Positions 303 through 8,800 of a stretch of 36,224 nucleotides of DNA are shown piece after piece. Position numbers and translations under genes: made by a program. Every line of letters starts with the position of its first letter. Positions within the stretch are counted from its first letter, which is position 1. The stretch is from Candidatus Thiodiazotropha endolucinida. GTDB lineage: Bacteria > Pseudomonadota > Gammaproteobacteria > Chromatiales > Chromatiaceae. The stretch lies in assembly GCF_001715975.1 (NCBI RefSeq), contig NZ_MARB01000033.1:1-36224 (forward strand), in the 5' to 3' direction. The notes under the pieces were generated by a model. The model was not told the origin of the DNA. It saw nothing but the letters and a program-made list of their open reading frames with translations, and made no database searches.

Positions 303-1589
303 TTACTCTTGGTCATTTGAATCATTCTCAAGTGCAGCAAATTTTTCGACCATTGTAGGATTGCCTCGGGTCAATTTCTTAATGGTTAGATCTTCGGCTT
401 TGTCATTGGCAAGCCTGAGATTATTAGCGGATTTATGAAGTGCTTGTTTTGTTTTTTCCAGATCTTTTATTGCTTCATCTATACGCTTTACAGCTTCCTC
501 AAAGCCATCCGAAGCTAGCCGCCAATTTCTACCGAATGCGGTTTTGAATTCGTCCAGCTGAGACTCGAAATTAGTAATGTCTATGTTTTGCGCCCTTACT
601 TGAGCAAGTTCCGACTTGTATTTGAGTGAATTCTGAGCTGCGTTACGAAGCAATGTGATTATTGGGATGAAAAACTGAGGTCTTACAACATACATTTTAG
701 GGTGGCGATGGGAAACATCGACTATTCCGTTATTATAGAGCTCATTATCAGACTCTAGTAGCGAGACAAGTACAGCATACTCGCAGCCTTTTTCATTACG
801 ATCTTTATCAAGCTCTTTGAGAAAATCTTCGTTTTTCTTTTTTGTTGCTGTTTCATCGCCCTCATTCTTCATCTCGAACATGATCGAGACTATTTCAGTT
901 CCGTCTCCATCAGAGTCTTTGAAGACGTAATCTCCCTTGCTGCCACTACTTGCGTCATTGTCCTTTTCGAAGTAGGCGTTCGGAAACGCAGTGGCACGAA
1001 TACTGTTGAATGAGATTTCGCAGTGCTGCTCTAAAGTTTCACCAAGCATTTTAGTAGAAAGCTTTGCTTTGAAATCTTTGTAGTAAGCAATCAACTCATC
1101 CTTGGCTTTCAACTCAGAGCCATGAGTCTCCTTCATATTAGACTCAAGAAGCTTGTGCTCAGTATCTTTTGCCTCAAGTTTATTAACTAGATTGTCTCGC
1201 TCTTTTTCAACCGAACTGATTGCTTCTGTTATGACGAGCTTCTGCTCAACTTTAAAGGTCTCAAGTTTTGTCGCGAGTTGCTGTATTTCTGCATCCTTTT
1301 TTGCGATTGCTTCCGAGACAGCGAGGTTCTTCGCGACTTCACCGCCTTCAAGCTTGGCCTTCAATTCTTTTATCTCCGCGTCTTTCGCGGAAACATCCTT
1401 CTGCATCTTGCTTTTTACAGTTGTACTAGCCAGCTCAACTGCATTTAGTTTTTCTTTCTCGGCCAGCGTCAGACGTTCATCCAACTGGTGTTGGAAATCA
1501 CTGTCACGTACTTGCTTCAGGATATCGGCATATCCAGCTTCGTCGATCTTGAACGCCTTTTTACAATTGGGGCAAATGATTTCGTTCAT
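303..1589 (-). CDS. DUF2130 protein with zinc-binding N-terminus, coiled coil and putative PD-(D/E)XK nuclease core
   Basis: The 428-residue protein starts with a CPNC pair (C6, C9), continues through a highly charged, probably coiled-coil stretch (about 40-165), and then a globular DUF2130 domain (about 170-320). A C-terminal helical segment follows. In the globular part, D220 followed by E239-M-K241 fits the D...ExK active site of PD-(D/E)XK nucleases. I recall DUF2130 being grouped in that superfamily, but its activity is unknown to me. The start has a good GAAGGA ribosome site eight bases upstream. It lies 42 bp after the OLD nuclease gene on the same strand, so co-transcription is likely. 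The gene is clearly more A+T-rich than the chromosomal genes to the right, consistent with transfer. A defence role is an inference from its partner and the integron context. Confidence 0.8.
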
Positions 1590-1607
1590 AAGAATATTCC
1601 TTCTTTA

Positions 1608-1631
1608 GCGCCTGATCGCTCTTGTTAGCGC
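1608..1631 (-). other. Candidate half attC site (R''-L'' side) after OLD cassette
   Basis: On the - strand this reads GCGCTAAC, AAGAGCGA, TCAGGCGC, matching the R''-spacer-L'' layout of an attC left half. It begins one base after the stop codon of the OLD gene. GCGCTAAC is the exact reverse complement of the GTTAGCGC that precedes that gene at 3378-3385, as expected for the two outer arms of one cassette's attC. No L'-R' half follows: the DUF2130 start codon is only 18 bp further on. Confidence 0.55.
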
Positions 1632-3362
1632 TTATAAGGCATCAATAATCGTTTTAAGTGCATCAATATTTTCATCAGCGACATCACCTCTTTTGAATTT
1701 TACGATTATATTTAAAGGCTTCAGGTCTGGCCTGCTTGGTTTATCTATATCCAGAAAAGTCTCGAAATCATCATCAAATGCATAAATAGTTTTAGTTAAA
1801 GCAGTTTTTCTTTCATCTATAAACGTATTAACAATGCCATGCACGCCCGCATCATTATCGGAGTCAAGCAGTACTGAGTGGCTTATACCAAGCTCGGTCA
1901 ATAAAGTTATATAACGATGGATATTGAATTTACCCAGTGCATCAAGAAGGTAGATGTGCCGGTCTTTAAATTCTGGCCACTTTTCATTAAAGAGAAAATC
2001 AATAAATATTTTCTCGGATGCGCCCTCGCAAATAATTACATGTTTAGCAAAAAACATAGATGCTCTTTCGGCATCTAGCCACATGAAATATCGAACAGCT
2101 TCTTCTTCAAGTTTTTCTGCAGGATTCGGGATGTCATCCCTCAGTCTTTGAGTGCGAATTCTTTGCTTAATGCCGTCGTCATAGTCATCTGAGTTTAGGC
2201 AATCACAGAATCTTTTATAGAGTCCGATATTGCTATCGAAAACTCTATTAAGAGCCTCTTCCTTGACCTGGAATGAGTTTGTTTCGCCATTAATCTTCGA
2301 AAGCCGGATTATTCCTTCAATTTGATCGATTTGTTTGCTGACAAAATGCGGGGAATGGCTTGATATTAGGACTTGTTCTGGCTCTTGAGAGGCAAGCGTT
2401 CTTAAACTTAAATGCAGTGATTCCTGTTGAGCGGGATGTAGGAATGCCTCAGGTTCCTCATATAGGAATAATGTAAAGTCGGGGTCGAAATCTTTTTTCT
2501 TTGTTGAAGAGGGGGCAGCATACTTTGCCGACAATTTAATTAATGTAAATATTAAATGCCTCTGAAGTCCCTGGCCAAATGAGGATAAATTTATCTGCTT
2601 ACCCCCAAGATCAACATCTTCAATGTAGTGGGATAGCAGATTCTTTACTATATCCTCTGGCCTTATTGGGTTAACAGATACGCCAAATCGAATATTCCAT
2701 TGATCAATATCCGAATTAATATCGTCTATGAGGGAATTGATAGAGAAACCATCTTTAGAGGCTTCATCTTTAAAATCGGTATTGAATGTATCAAATGCAG
2801 TTTTTAATCCATCAAAAGTCGCACTCTCAAGGACGGCTCTTTTCATTACAAAGTTCACCATTTCACGAAATGGTGAGGGCCCTGTTAACTTTAGCGTTTC
2901 ATCAGTTTTGCTAACAGCGGGGATATAAATAACGTTACCTAGTTTCGCTTGAGATACGTTTTTGGCGCCATAAAATAAATTGCCAGAAAGCTCGCCTCCT
3001 TCATATGCGTAAATATTGCTTTGGCTTGTTTTGACTAAGTCTTTGTTATCTGATTGAAAGTATTTTCTTACTCGCAAAATACTATCTTTCGATTTATATT
3101 CATCCTTTAGTCCAGCTTGCTCATCCGGCGTTGTCTCAAAAGCAAGCTCTACCCAACTTTCGTCATCATCGGTTTTGAATTTCGGAAAATCTGAATCCTT
3201 TTTGTACTTTATGCCACCATCTTCATAAAACAGACGCAACGCCATCAATATATTGGTTTTCCCGGCATAATTCTCACCAACCAGCATAGAATAATCAGAC
3301 ACATAGCATGTGGCATCTTTTATTGAACGCACATTATGAATGATGATTTCTCTGAGATTCAT
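1632..3362 (-). CDS. OLD-family endonuclease: ABC-type ATPase with C-terminal TOPRIM domain
   Basis: The 576-residue protein has an ABC/SMC-like ATPase half and a nuclease half. Visible motifs are Walker A GENYAGKTN (29-37), signature-like LSSFGQGLQR (259-268), Walker B FLYEEPEAFLHP (299-310) and H-loop SSHSPHF (334-340). The TOPRIM part has VIICEGASE with E446 and E450, and LLDSDND with D500 and D502, the metal-binding acidic residues of OLD-type nickases. This is the architecture of the overcoming-lysogenisation-defect family, which includes the GajA subunit of Gabija; no UvrD-like GajB partner is seen here. Its neighbour is instead a DUF2130 putative nuclease. An AAGGG ribosome site precedes the ATG. 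The gene sits between complementary attC arms in an integron and is A+T-rich. Family assignment is firm; the antiviral role is inferred. Confidence 0.9.
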   Translation of the reverse strand: MNLREIIIHNVRSIKDATCYVSDYSMLVGENYAGKTNILMALRLFYEDGGIKYKKDSDFPKFKTDDDESWVELAFETTPDEQAGLKDEYKSKDSILRVRKYFQSDNKDLVKTSQSNIYAYEGGELSGNLFYGAKNVSQAKLGNVIYIPAVSKTDETLKLTGPSPFREMVNFVMKRAVLESATFDGLKTAFDTFNTDFKDEASKDGFSINSLIDDINSDIDQWNIRFGVSVNPIRPEDIVKNLLSHYIEDVDLGGKQINLSSFGQGLQRHLIFTLIKLSAKYAAPSSTKKKDFDPDFTLFLYEEPEAFLHPAQQESLHLSLRTLASQEPEQVLISSHSPHFVSKQIDQIEGIIRLSKINGETNSFQVKEEALNRVFDSNIGLYKRFCDCLNSDDYDDGIKQRIRTQRLRDDIPNPAEKLEEEAVRYFMWLDAERASMFFAKHVIICEGASEKIFIDFLFNEKWPEFKDRHIYLLDALGKFNIHRYITLLTELGISHSVLLDSDNDAGVHGIVNTFIDERKTALTKTIYAFDDDFETFLDIDKPSRPDLKPLNIIVKFKRGDVADENIDALKTIIDAL

Positions 3363-3377: not shown

Positions 3378-3413
3378 GCGCTAACGCTTAGTTCAGCGGC
3401 CGTCGCGCCGCGC
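3378..3413 (-). other. Right half of an integron attC site (L'-R')
   Basis: On the - strand this reads GCGGC, GCGACG, GCCGCTGAAC, TAA, GCGTTAGCGC. The last part is a good L'-R' attC half, with the cleavable GTTA core at the usual place. GCGGC/GCCGC forms the inner hairpin. The complementary continuation on the far side (expected GTTCA before GCGGC) is missing and replaced by DNA belonging to the transposase gene, so this attC appears cut within L''. It lies 15 bp upstream of the OLD gene's ATG, as a preceding cassette's attC should. Confidence 0.65.
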
Positions 3414-4608
3414 AAAAAATTGGCGGTGATGTCTCGTGATTTAGATAATCAATGTGCGCTACAGGTCGATCGCGGTCCGTTGTAACGCATTGTTGCACAC
3501 TGCTATTCCTTATATAGGAAATTTTACGCCTTATGCTTATAACATGCATCAAATCATGGCCACACATCGGACAAATTGGCACTTCCCTATCCGGTTTTTC
3601 GAATACCTTTTCCAATTCTACTCCTAGTGTACTTCTTACCTTATCTCGCTTCTCTCGGGCACCACTGGCATATAACCCATAATATCTGACTTGATGTTGA
3701 CCGGCTACGGCGACATGCCATAACACGCGCGTCATGAAATGTGCTATCGGCAATGTCATAGTTTTTCTTTTACAGTCATGATGGTCTTTGTAGCAAAAAG
3801 TCACACGTTGATCATCAGCGCTTATAATCTGTTGGTTTTTGATCGTTCCACCCCTGACATATCGGGAAAGGTAGATTGCTACGCCATCGCCATGCTTGTA
3901 GGCGCCCTGTATTCGGATATTCCAGTTCTTTCGCGAAACTTGTCGCAACACCCGACGCCATTCAAGTTCTGTCCACTCTGGCGGAAGCGTAATTTCGTTA
4001 TTGGCATATGCTTCATTTAACCTACTCAGCCATTTGCCACGAAACTTCGCTTTCAGAACACCAACCGGTAATAAGAAATCATTTTCCACGCGGCACACAT
4101 CGTCGCTATGTAAACCTATACCGGTTACCAATACGTGCATGTGAGGATGAAAGATCTGGGTTCGGCCCCAAGTGTGCAGCGACGATAGGAGACCAACTTC
4201 TCCGCCAAGATACCGCTCGTCTTTTAATAACTCTCGCAGTGTCTCAGCAGTCGCCTGAAACAACTTGTCTGCACACCAGCGTCGATTGTAGTGCCAGATT
4301 GCATTGAGCTCATGAGGTAAGGTGAAAACTACGTGGTAGTGTTCGCACAACAACAATTTGGATTTGATCTTTTCGAGCCACTCCCGACTTTGTGATCCGT
4401 TGCAAAGGGGACAGCTGCGATGCCGGCAGGAGTGGGGCTGTCGCAACACATAATTATCATCACGGCATAACCATTCTTCATAGCCCAGTTCATCGCGCTG
4501 ACAATCCATGATCGCTTGTGCCGCTTTGATTTGATCAATACTCAGTCCGTGCATCTTTCTATAGCTTTCAAACTCCGAACGAAATATACTTTGTAGTGTC
4601 GCTTCCAT
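3388..4608 (-). CDS. IS91-family transposase (HUH/Y2 rolling-circle type)
   Basis: The 406-residue protein is an HUH endonuclease driving rolling-circle transposition. An N-terminal zinc region has H59, C61, H63, C66 and C69. The metal-binding motif is HPHMH (154-158), and the paired nucleophilic tyrosines lie in YLSRY (Y246, Y250). A second cysteine pair (C346, C349) follows. Length is normal for the family, so it may be active. The start has an AAGGAG ribosome site. The last nine or so residues (CAARRPLN) and the TAA stop are encoded by the attC half-site at 3378-3413, so the original C-terminus was probably elsewhere. It is divergent from intI. I could not define the element's ori and ter ends. 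Confidence 0.88.
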   Translation of the reverse strand: MEATLQSIFRSEFESYRKMHGLSIDQIKAAQAIMDCQRDELGYEEWLCRDDNYVLRQPHSCRHRSCPLCNGSQSREWLEKIKSKLLLCEHYHVVFTLPHELNAIWHYNRRWCADKLFQATAETLRELLKDERYLGGEVGLLSSLHTWGRTQIFHPHMHVLVTGIGLHSDDVCRVENDFLLPVGVLKAKFRGKWLSRLNEAYANNEITLPPEWTELEWRRVLRQVSRKNWNIRIQGAYKHGDGVAIYLSRYVRGGTIKNQQIISADDQRVTFCYKDHHDCKRKTMTLPIAHFMTRVLWHVAVAGQHQVRYYGLYASGAREKRDKVRSTLGVELEKVFEKPDREVPICPMCGHDLMHVISIRRKISYIRNSSVQQCVTTDRDRPVAHIDYLNHETSPPIFCAARRPLN

Positions 4609-4835: not shown

Positions 4836-5807
4836 ATGGACGTTGTTAAGAAACCTATGTTGCTGGAGGTCGTCCGGCAGCGAATGCGGCTTCGGCATTA
4901 CAGCATTCGGACTGAAAAATCCTACATTCACTGGATTCGGCGATTCGTTCGCTTTCATAACAGACGCCATCCCAAGGAGCTGGGTAAACAGGAGATCGAG
5001 GCCTTTCTCACCCACCTTGCCGTTGATCGAAAAGTGTCTGCCTCGACGCAGAATCAGGCTTTCAATGCTTTGTTGTTTCTCTACCGCGAGGTTTTGGAGC
5101 TTAAGATGCCGCAGCTTGATTCGGTAAGGCGTGCTAAAAAACCCAAACAGTTGCCGACCGTACTTTCGCCGGATGAGGTCCGACAGGTATTGAGTCACCT
5201 GGATGGTAAATACTGGATTGCCGCGAACCTGCTCTACGGCTCGGGGCTGCGACTGCTCGAATGCCTGCGTCTTCGGGTGCAGGATATCGATTTCAATCTC
5301 GCTCAGATCATGGTGCGAGGGGGAAAGGGCAACAAGGACCGTTGTACGATTTTGCCGGCGTCGGTGATCGATCCGCTGCAGGAGCATCTTGAGAAATTGC
5401 GCACCATCCATAGTCAGGATCTCGAAAAAGGCTTGGGTCGAGTATACCTGCCGGTTGCATTGGATCGCAAATACCCTAATGCCTCAAAAGAACTGTGCTG
5501 GCAGTTCGTCTTTCCCGCATCGCGTTACGTTGCTGATCGTGATACCGGGCATCAGGTCAGATTTCATTTGCATGAGAAGGCGCTGCAACGTGCGATTAAG
5601 TCTGCCGTCACGCAATCGGAAATCTCGAAGCGTGCAACGGCGCATACCTTGCGTCACAGTTTCGCGACCCACCTGCTACAGTGGGGTGCGGACATTCGCA
5701 CCATACAGGCCCTGCTCGGTCATAAGGATGTCAACACCACCATGATCTATACTCATGTGATTCAAAAAGGCGGCATGGGGGTTCGCAGCCCTTTGGATTT
5801 ATTGTGA
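4836..5807 (+). CDS. intI: Integron integrase (IntI-type tyrosine recombinase)
   Basis: The 323-residue protein catalyses cassette insertion and excision at attI and attC. It has a SAM-like DNA-binding N-terminal domain (about 8-95) and a catalytic domain. Catalytic residues are R139 (GSGLRL), K164, H270, R273 (HTLRHSF), H296 (LLGHKDV) and Y305 (MIYTH). Each is exactly seven less than the IntI1 residue I recall (R146, K171, H277, R280, H303, Y312). The segment [14 protein letters not shown] followed by CWQFVFPAS (about 204-229) is the extra helix patch that separates IntI from XerC/XerD. The C-terminus [12 protein letters not shown] is also typical. The gene is full length with no lesion. It converges on lhr with 14 bp between the stops. 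It is not IntI1, IntI2 or IntI3 itself, so a chromosomal integron is likely. Confidence 0.96.
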
Positions 5808-5821
5808 AAGAGATCGTACCC

Positions 5822-8800
5822 TTAAAACAGCGGACCTTGTTGCGGTTTGTGATAGTTAGCCGGATGCTGTTTGCGTGTCAGCAGATTCCTGATGTGCCAG
5901 TGTTCGCTCTCGGGTATCGCATCATCGATGGTGATCTCACCACCCTGGTTGGTGGCGACCGGTTTGCCATCCTTGTATAGAATGCGATGACCTGCCTGGG
6001 CAGTAATGCGTTTGCCGGGCGTAACGATGCCGGTGAGGTTCAGGGGGTCCGCGCTGCCGATGCTGATCAGTTCATCGGCATCCTTACTTTTGCGTACCTC
6101 GCGCATCAGACTCACCGCCTCCGTCAGTGCAAAATGCTCGCCGGCAAAACCCTCGACGAAACGACCACCCCTGATCTCTCCCCTTGCCTCCAAACGGCGC
6201 AAACAATAGAGCAGGTCGCGCCAGGGAGGCAGATCGCTCTCACGCTCGAGCAGTTTCCTGAACACCACGCCATAGCGGGTCAGCAGAGTATGCGCGATCT
6301 GCTCGATGCGTTGTGTTTCATCCTCATGAGCGATTGGCGCCCGTATCAATGACCAGCGCCCACCAGAGGCGAGTGGGGTCTGCATGGTAGTGCGACGCCG
6401 GCTGCGCTTGCGGCGCTTCTCCGGCGTGATCATGGCACGTAATCCCTGGAACTGGTCTGAATTGACCAGCCCCCAGGCGACCAGTTCGCCCAGGGCGATC
6501 TCCAGCTGGGTTTTCAGCAGACCGGTCTGCTGTTGCAGATCATCGAAAAAACTGGCGCCCCACTGCTGCAGCACTTCCAATACCTTGACCGCGGTGATGC
6601 TCAGCCCCTCGGGTACTGCCGAGTCTGTCCGATACCAAACCGAGAGATGGGGGCGGAAGACGAAAGCCAGCGGGGTGGTCTTGATTGCCGGGTTTTTGCG
6701 TTTGTTCTGCTTGGGTTCAGTTGGATGCAGGCGCAGCCAGGCAAGCTTGCCCGAACCGCACAACTCGTCCAGCTCGCTGGAGAAGTAGGGCTGCAGCCGG
6801 GCGGGCAGGATCTCATCCTCCCAGCTGCCGGCGGGCACGCTGATCCCTTCGAGTTGCAGCATGACCCGTTCCAGCGCAGCAACACCCTGCGCAGGATCGT
6901 CCAGCCCCTGCCAGCTGAACAGGAAGCGCATAAAATCGGCGGGGCTAACCGGCTCGATTTCACGACGCAGCTGTTTCAGGGTATAGCGGTGTATCCGCGC
7001 CAGCAGGCCGCGCTCGCACCACTCGACCTCGGCACAATCCGGATTGAAACGACCCTGTATGACATAGCCCTCCTGCTCCAGACTGCTCAACGCCAGCACC
7101 ACAGTTTCTGTCGGCAGATTTAAGGGGCGTGCCAGCTGCTCAACCGTCACCGGACCAAGACACTCCAGACAACTGCGCAGGATCTCCAACACCGCCGATT
7201 CAAATGTCTCGGCCTCATCTGCGGGTAGGGCGCTGATCATCGGTGATTGCTCATGCGCCGGGCAGATCTTCTGCATCGCCTGCAGCCGCTCCGCGCTGAC
7301 CCATAAAACCCGTTGCCCGTTCGTGAGCCGGGTAGCGCGCTGTTGCTGCTGCAGATCAGCCAGATAACGCCGCCATGACTCGAGATCCGTTGAGGCGATT
7401 TCGTCCTCTTCGAGAAAGCCGGCGATCATCAACCCATCGTGGAGTTCGTCCGGATTACGCGGCTGCGGCCAGGCCTCTGCCTGCACCTGGCGGATCGCCT
7501 CGGGATTCAGGCGTCCCAGGTCGGCGGCGGTTTGCGGATCCATATGGCGACGCTGCCGGACCGCCAGCGCGCGCCGCTCCTCCGCCGGGGTGTCGTCGAG
7601 GAAAGCGTAGGGTCTGGCATTGAGAATTTCGAGTGCCATGGGCGACGGTGTCGGCAGTTCTTTTGCGCTTACCCGGATGCGTCCCTGCTCAATGGCATCC
7701 AGCACCCCCTTCAGTCCATCGATGTCCATCAGCTCGTGCAGGCAGTCACACAACGCCTGGTTCACCAGCGGGTGGTCTGGCACCTCCCGGTCACCCTGGA
7801 TGTTTTCGAAACAGGCGAGCTGATCGGGGAAGACCAGTACCACCAGGTCTTCGGCATCGTTGCGCTGGAAGGGCGCGGGCACCCGCTTGCCGCCGCGCGT
7901 GCGGGGCACCGCCAGGGAGATATTGGTCACCCAGCGCCAGCGGGTCGGAAACATGGGCGCGGCCAGCAGGGCCTGAACCAATACCTGCTCGACGCTCTTT
8001 GATTTCAAATAGCCTGCCGGCTCTTCCAGGGGGAAGCTGTGGGTGGGCCCGAGGGAGAGGATCAGGTTGTCCTCGTTGGCGGCCGCCTGCAGTTCGAAAT
8101 TGAAGCGGCGGCAGAAGCACTTGCGCAGGGCCAGGCCCCAGGCCTTGTTGATGCGGGAGCCGAAGGGTGCGTGGATGACGAAATGCATGTCGCCGGTCTC
8201 GTCGAAAAAACGCTCGAAAACCACATGTCTCTGACTGGGAATCACGCCGAAGAGCGCCTTTGTCGCCGTGAGATATTCGACCAGCTGCTCGGCGACCGCC
8301 GGGTCGAGACGATGTGTCTGCTGCAGATAATCCAGCGCTGCCTGCTGTCCCTTGTCTAATACTCCGTCGAGGGTTTCGCGCAGTCGGGAAACCGCGTGGG
8401 AGAGTTCGTCGGTGCGACCCGGCGCCTCGCCGAACCAGAAGGGGATTGAGGGCGGCTGGCCGTGTGCGTCCTCCACGAACACCCTGCCCTGCTCGATCTT
8501 CAACATGCGGTAGGAGAAATTACCGAGCTGGAAGATATCCCCCGGCATGCTCTCGAAGGCGAAATCCTCGTTCAGGCTGCCGACGAACAGCCCCTCCGGT
8601 TGCAGGATCACATCGTAATCGAACTGATCGGGTATGGCGCCGCCATTGGTGATCGCCGTCAGGCGGGCACTCCGCCGCGGCCGCAGCATGCCGTTGACCG
8701 CATCGCGATGGATGTAGTCGCCCCGCCTGCCCCGCCGGGTGTGAAAACCTTCCGCCAGCATCTTCACCACATCGAGAAAATCCTGCTCGGCAAGATTGTT

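Follow-up and report, generated by a model that had tools for sequence, protein, structure and literature searches.

An OLD-family gene paired with a DUF2130 gene in an integron-like setting: a candidate two-nuclease variant of OLD defence

Contig NZ_MARB01000033.1 of Candidatus Thiodiazotropha endolucinida (assembly GCF_001715975.1), analysed over its 36,224 nucleotides and referred to below as the window, carries near its start two adjacent genes on the minus strand: one encoding a 576-residue OLD-family protein with an ATPase and a TOPRIM domain (positions 1632-3362) and, downstream of it across a 42 bp spacer (1590-1631), one encoding a 428-residue DUF2130 protein (303-1589). Pairs of this composition recur in other bacteria, on plasmids, and on contigs from virus collections, which suggests an anti-phage module without earlier description, and the pair is a credible, if unproven, candidate for a two-nuclease variant of OLD defence. 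The reading that we favour, which we regard as evenly poised between right and wrong, is that the two genes form an anti-phage module with two nucleases, centred on an OLD protein of class-1-like type and captured as a composite integron cassette.

The OLD protein and the predicted DUF2130 nuclease

The initial annotation described two A+T-rich genes, 42 bp apart on the same strand, as a possible two-gene defence system. The open reading frames (ORFs) bear out this arrangement, with a G+C fraction of 0.379 for the OLD gene and 0.419 for the DUF2130 gene compared with 0.539 for the whole window and 0.623 for an Lhr-like helicase gene, which lies upstream of the OLD gene beyond an IS91-family transposase gene and an integron integrase gene (intI), in that order. 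The genome contains a single DUF2130 match and, for the OLD protein, one full match and one weak TOPRIM match on contig C9 (in what follows, L, G and C numbers denote loci, genomes and contigs). Contig C9 carries this distant OLD-like TOPRIM match (50676-50900) ~44 kb from the genome's only RVT_1 match (5866-6510).

As first annotated, the upstream gene encodes an OLD-family protein: an ABC ATPase and a TOPRIM domain occupy one chain, both Pfam matches exceed their cut-offs (AAA_15, 95.5 bits against 32.1; OLD-like_TOPRIM, 57.9 bits against 23.2), and the Walker A and B motifs and acidic TOPRIM residues are in place. The motif residues (Walker A G29, N31, G34 and K35, EEPE at 302-305, and TOPRIM E446 and D500/D502) are invariant across four aligned sequences of the clade to which the window protein belongs. 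OLD proteins are classed by genomic context into single genes (class 1), genes with UvrD (class 2, Gabija), retrons (class 3), PARIS (class 4), and archaeal genes (class 5), and the class descriptions, in the parts available, place class 1 away from other candidate defence genes and hold no DUF2130 class (PMC10568477, PMC12796447). Whether a class 1 protein defends alone is given as an open question in the available text of one of these papers (PMC10568477). Among PADLOC models the window protein scores best with Old (PDLC02358, 171 bits), and by sequence it is nearest to the solitary-type Old and not to GajA, making it class-1-like; as to the single-gene arrangement of that class, a DUF2130 gene adjoins it at 42 bp as a possible partner.

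It is very improbable that the pair is an atypical form of Gabija, a retron, or PARIS in which the usual partner was replaced or lost, a reading that was already disfavoured. GajA models do match the window protein, the best at 115 bits, as does the AriA model at 95 bits, but both fall below the score of the Old model, and no UvrD, reverse transcriptase (RT), or AriB-type gene lies beside the OLD gene in the window. Its neighbours there are the IS91 transposase gene and the DUF2130 gene, with the assembly stopping inside an intron beyond the latter. The partner seen here differs from the UvrD-like helicase GajB of Gabija, as the annotation had remarked. Gabija loci that lie near DUF2130 genes elsewhere contain GajB, with GajA scores of 968 and 1044 bits. 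With regard to retrons, the genome has a single RVT_1 match, on another contig, and Rfam at its gathering scores returns just two tRNAs in the window. PARIS has separate ATPase and TOPRIM genes, whereas here one ORF holds both domains.

The downstream protein matches Pfam DUF2130 (PF09903) at 292.7 bits against a curated cut-off of 26.7. It has the features first noted for it, namely a single CxxC pair (C6, C9), a long coiled coil, and residues D220, E239, and K241, as well as a PD-(D/E)XK-like core at residues 180-320 and C-terminal helices. Analysis with AlphaFold and VIA-align predicts an alpha-beta-beta-beta-alpha-beta core with the D and the (D/E)xK on strands 2 and 3, which suggests that DUF2130 is a coiled-coil PD-(D/E)XK nuclease. 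The five residues are invariant in 12 hand-picked members from two DUF2130 subfamilies. In a check of 31 rows, comprising the window and 30 fetched loci found by profile, they read C,C,D,E,K in 25 rows and C,C,D,D,K in two; the other four rows are two wrongly called ORFs, one contig-edge fragment, and a 300-residue protein (L114) with the D but without the E or K. Their invariance in a 61-row alignment (A4) was set aside because E239, K241, and C6 were forced there: the scan pattern held FEMK and the script required FEMKNE and the first cysteine, so that A4 took 60 of 80 scan loci, with 19 in which the script found no clean ORF and one omitted by hand.

No PADLOC model matches DUF2130, and a literature search conducted mostly outside subscription papers and wholly outside preprints found no defence role for the family (PF09903, COG4487). 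The terms DUF2130 and 'defense' were found together only as a table row, in the available part of one paper (PMC3597751). Within this coverage, the remark that no described system has this composition still stands.

Recurrence of the pair and the neighbours of DUF2130

Among 398 genomes of the phylum, with the window's own genome included in the counts, DUF2130 matches occur in 33 (31 above the cut-off) and matches to the window OLD protein in 42. Distances were counted in 30 of the 33 genomes, the three with the weakest DUF2130 matches being left out. These hold 13 OLD-TOPRIM matches, five of which have a DUF2130 gene no more than 3 kb away; those of the window's genome, G338, G200, and G316 are on the same strand, and that of G217 is a divergent Gabija. 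A simple genome-length estimate puts the chance of finding at least three same-strand neighbours among 12, with the window excluded, at about 1e-6. None of the 60 N6_Mtase (type I-like methylase) matches in the same 30 genomes, many of them fragmented, lies within 20 kb of a DUF2130 gene on the same contig, the nearest being ~25 kb away in G267. With caution for the fragmentation, this argues against reading the OLD link as a general effect of restriction islands. The close DUF2130 subfamily was also followed in a scan of GTDB contigs, from which the best 80 of at least 564 stretches encoding relatives were taken. Members of this subfamily with 60-64% identity to the window protein occur in metagenome-assembled genome records of Patescibacteria type (L156-L158, L168, L185, L187, and L188), a pattern suggestive of broad horizontal transfer or of mis-binning.

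Other searches for OLD genes used queries drawn partly from the same loci, whereas clustering of DUF2130 neighbours was independent of OLD queries. ORFs of at least 120 residues within 4 kb of DUF2130 were clustered for 116 loci (30 from the genomes, 80 from the scan, five from plasmids, and the window), which were not de-duplicated, L094 and L166 being apparently one contig. For comparison, ORFs around the middle of 20 control regions were used, placed at round coordinates on large contigs from 12 genomes of the set. OLD is the largest recurrent neighbour family, found at 13 of the 116 loci and in none of the 20 controls (Fisher p 0.11, the control set being too small for significance alone); at a density of 13 per ~114 Mb, ~0.1 OLD genes would be expected in 116 such stretches, by our estimate. 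Other families not seen in the controls are HerA (eight loci), SIR2 (seven, one of them truncated), four families that belong to a type III restriction island (four loci each), a glyoxalase-like family and one further nameless family (four loci each), and then smaller ones. Three clusters of four to eight loci were shared with the controls and appear by eye to be ABC ATPases and regulators. PADLOC strongly names the HerA, SIR2, DUF4297, and type III methylase representatives. Of the defence genes that the annotation had suggested looking for, HerA, SIR2, and type III restriction genes recur near DUF2130 and type I-like methylases do not.

Several of these loci have a recurrent layout. SIR2 and then HerA follow DUF2130 on the same strand in L180 (6150-12434), L100, L148, and L184, and in L180 an OLD gene precedes DUF2130 to give the four-gene row OLD-DUF2130-SIR2-HerA. 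DUF2130 stands in a type III restriction island with DUF4391, Mod, and Res in L020, L093, L124, and L173; two of these loci also have an OLD gene, three an SNF2 helicase gene, and L173 HerA.

These neighbours bear on a further explanation, that a solitary class 1 OLD gene stands beside a mobile DNA-repair or maintenance nuclease that lodges in islands by chance and has no defence role, with DUF2130 taking an RmuC-like part. We consider this improbable. It would fit the 103 loci of 116 that fall outside the OLD cluster, although a different OLD-type gene lies no more than 4 kb away in three of these (L108 and L149, both divergent Gabija loci, and L154), and it would fit the lack of type I-like methylases nearby. 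It fits poorly with OLD, HerA, SIR2, and type III restriction genes being the commonest neighbours absent from controls, with the patchy occurrence of DUF2130 in the genomes, and with its presence on plasmids and viral-collection contigs.

The OLD-DUF2130 pairs themselves vary in spacing and surroundings. The two genes are 2 bp apart in L020, L089, L124, L126, L127, L145 (where only the C-terminal part of OLD is open), and L195, and are more widely spaced in the window, L180 (81 bp), and L140 (119 bp); the 2 bp spacing characterises one clade of OLD proteins. DUF2130 precedes OLD in L101 and L110, and in L172 the OLD gene is split, with its nearer piece 838 bp from DUF2130. L020 and L124 share the order helicase-DUF4391-[OLD-DUF2130]-Mod-Res, and the same island occurs without OLD in L093; in L126, L127, and L195 the flanks of the pair differ. 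The pair is also found on three viral-collection contigs (L229, L243/L230, and L244/L233). A 626-residue OLD protein, matched at 74% identity or higher in six plasmid records, is accompanied by an intact DUF2130 gene in two, by a 49-codon remnant in one, from Aeromonas, and by none in three. In the Aeromonas plasmid (L247, 5001-7030), the OLD gene is intact and the remnant after it has 78% identity.

A tree of OLD proteins places the paired members in several parts of the family. It has 49 rows, hand-chosen from the loci at hand and therefore an uneven sample (one of 50 was dropped as short); the broken OLDs of L145 and L172 were not included, and L247, with its remnant, was counted as paired. 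The 16 paired OLDs fall in six places, namely the window, L180, L101, L140, L110, and a group of eleven rows within one 16-row clade. Nine changes between paired and unpaired labels are needed, of which the starred branches force at least eight, with the caveat that some branches are long and L101 joins another long branch. Judged by one member apiece, the five other paired types also have Old as their best PADLOC model, L110 being nearly a tie (162.5 bits, with AriA at 162.1).

An integron-like setting and the question of joint function

The pair lies beside features that resemble those of an integron, a setting that is a new observation relative to the initial annotation. The intI gene (plus strand, 4836-5807) matches TIGR02249 at 474.9 bits against a cut-off of 265 and is opposite in strand to the OLD and DUF2130 genes, as an integrase gene is to its cassettes, with the IS91-family transposase gene (minus strand, 3388-4608; NF033538, 332.5 bits against a cut-off of 125) intervening. 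Just upstream of the OLD gene is GTTAGCG (minus strand, 3379-3385), a candidate R' (core) site, and after it is CGCTAAC (minus strand, 1624-1630), a candidate R'' half of an attC site, followed by AAGAGCGATCAGGCG. The second motif is the exact complement of the first in 7/7 positions. Exact pairing of GTTNNNN with its complement in 60 bp flanks is also found for 7 of 1039 other ORFs, and the pairing is suggestive of integron boxes but not conclusive. At its 3' end the IS91 transposase gene continues into GCCGCTGAACTAAGCGTTAGCG, a sequence similar to the 3' half of an attC site, and the IS91 element may have taken the place of the first recombination site or landed within it.

On the other side of the pair, the contig ends inside a group II intron present in multiple copies, whose 3' end takes up the first positions of the window (plus strand, 1-267, with the domain V-VI region at 198-267). 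The Rfam match to it (RF00029, 36.3 bits, E 1.7e-5) is under the gathering score of 40; the stretch has seven other matches in the genome, five of which Rfam also finds. Between intron and DUF2130 gene is the junction ACGGCTA (minus strand, 268-274), a candidate R'' box interrupted by the intron. Group IIC-attC introns insert at R'' in TTGT/T, in the orientation opposite to the cassettes, according to the available part of a published account (PMC7923331). The 3' exon here starts T AGCCG and the intron is oriented opposite to the OLD and DUF2130 genes, and junction and orientation together fit an insertion of this type. The first exon base is T in 8/8 copies of the intron. The 5' exon and an RT of the intron were not found in the assembly. 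A second integrase gene in the genome (L014, G000:C25, 90-2028; TIGR02249, 446 bits) has a like arrangement, with GTTAGCG ahead of one ORF of 139 residues, after which come CGCTA and, at that junction, the same intron.

The nearby intI, the GTTAGCG core, and the putative R'' box invaded by the intron make the arrangement of OLD, half attC, DUF2130, and attC with intron look like a composite integron cassette. The main alternative uses the same features differently. According to this explanation, OLD and DUF2130 are two independent genes from separate cassettes that became joined through truncation of the intervening attC, sharing transcription and having no joint function. We regard it as a serious contender, held tentatively. 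It is favoured by CGCTAACAAGAGCGATCAGGCG after the OLD gene, which resembles the 5' half of an attC and includes the match to the box before OLD described above, and by the fact that no DUF2130 was seen beside five relatives of the window OLD. It is disfavoured by the recurrence of OLD-DUF2130 pairs in unrelated OLD clades, often at 2 bp spacing, and the half attC, a candidate called by eye, was not supported by a complete site in a stricter scan.

Several observations weigh against a joint module captured as one cassette. The integron setting itself allows for two separately captured genes, and there is no R' site between the CGCTAAC after OLD and the DUF2130 gene. The stricter scan found no complete attC; only an R''-type box precedes the intron, and the remainder would fall past the contig end. 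Just three of the eight intron copies (the window, the C25 start, and C36) show CTA at the junction, as would be expected for an attC R'', so this intron also settles at other kinds of site. Pairing is facultative, and the unit, though it recurs, is optional: 103 of the 116 DUF2130 loci are outside an OLD cluster for which the control comparison is not significant alone, and three identical OLD copies (L241, L242, and L245) lack DUF2130. In the clade of the window OLD, which includes Tistrella, Xanthomonas, and Acinetobacter plasmids and two viral contigs, no DUF2130 is seen where flanks are readable; the three plasmid stretches are long-flanked or complete, whereas the sequence of L198 breaks off within OLD and that of L197 continues for just 1.1 kb past it. 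On L197, a viral-collection contig, the OLD gene adjoins an ORF that by eye is tyrosine recombinase-like. The adjacency that the annotation had suggested searching for does recur, with most DUF2130 genes being without an OLD neighbour, and the proposal of a two-gene defence system is supported in part: it gains from that recurrence and loses from the relatives of the window OLD and from the possibility of separate capture.

Beyond intI, the Lhr-like helicase gene at 5822-10123 matches the PADLOC model DpdJ (PDLC02897) at 1620 bits, while other libraries call it an ATP-dependent helicase. The gene is probably not part of a Dpd system, as the NCBIfam DpdJ model, with its cut-off of 800 bits, reaches 69 and the PADLOC model is probably over-broad.

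A possible mechanism and its relation to known systems

If the favoured reading of a two-nuclease module is correct, the OLD protein would recognise or process foreign DNA, as its family suggests, and the co-expressed DUF2130 protein, with its predicted nuclease fold, would provide a second activity by cutting or degrading the DNA that OLD exposes. The gene architecture and its recurrence are observed and the fold is predicted, while co-function, a DNA substrate, and an anti-phage outcome are inferred. DUF2130 would be an exchangeable add-on and not an obligate subunit, having joined several unrelated OLDs and standing also beside SIR2-HerA, DUF4297-HerA, and type III restriction genes. A broader proposal, which we think somewhat unlikely, is that DUF2130 is a general-purpose exchangeable PD-(D/E)XK immunity nuclease that has repeatedly been recruited as a neighbour of class-1-type OLDs, SIR2-HerA, DUF4297-HerA, and type III islands, that OLD-DUF2130 is a further, polyphyletic OLD class, and that integrons take the pair as one mobile cassette.

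The pair resembles several known systems in part. The predicted core fold of DUF2130 is that of PD-(D/E)XK defence nucleases such as Card1/Can2, McrC, and Cap4, which have a CARF, SAVED, or AAA+ partner where DUF2130 has a CxxC and a long coiled coil. SIR2-HerA and DUF4297-HerA systems are recurrent neighbours of DUF2130, yet no HerA, SIR2, or DUF4297 gene lies beside the window pair. Gabija (GajA-GajB) likewise consists of two genes including an OLD protein, but its partner is a UvrD helicase instead of a predicted PD-(D/E)XK coiled-coil protein, and the window OLD is not of GajA type. PARIS (AriA-AriB) likewise combines an AAA_15-type ATPase with an operonic neighbour, which here is DUF2130. 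Class 1 OLDs, such as P2 Old and Thermus scotoductus OLD, share the N-terminal ABC ATPase and C-terminal TOPRIM of the window protein, but are described in the available text as solitary, whereas the window OLD has a recurrent same-strand neighbour (PMC10568477, PMC12796447). Integrons are already known as stores of defence genes, with Darracq 2025, Getz 2025, and Kieffer 2025 cited to this effect (PMC12444791). To judge from the references and passages of that paper, those cassettes likewise place genes of a defence type beside intI and integron-like boxes.

If several unrelated class-1-type OLDs do repeatedly have a second nuclease beside them, this would offer a direct test of whether class 1 OLD proteins defend alone. 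The partnership, if true, could also give a function to DUF2130, and the integron setting is a route by which such modules may spread.

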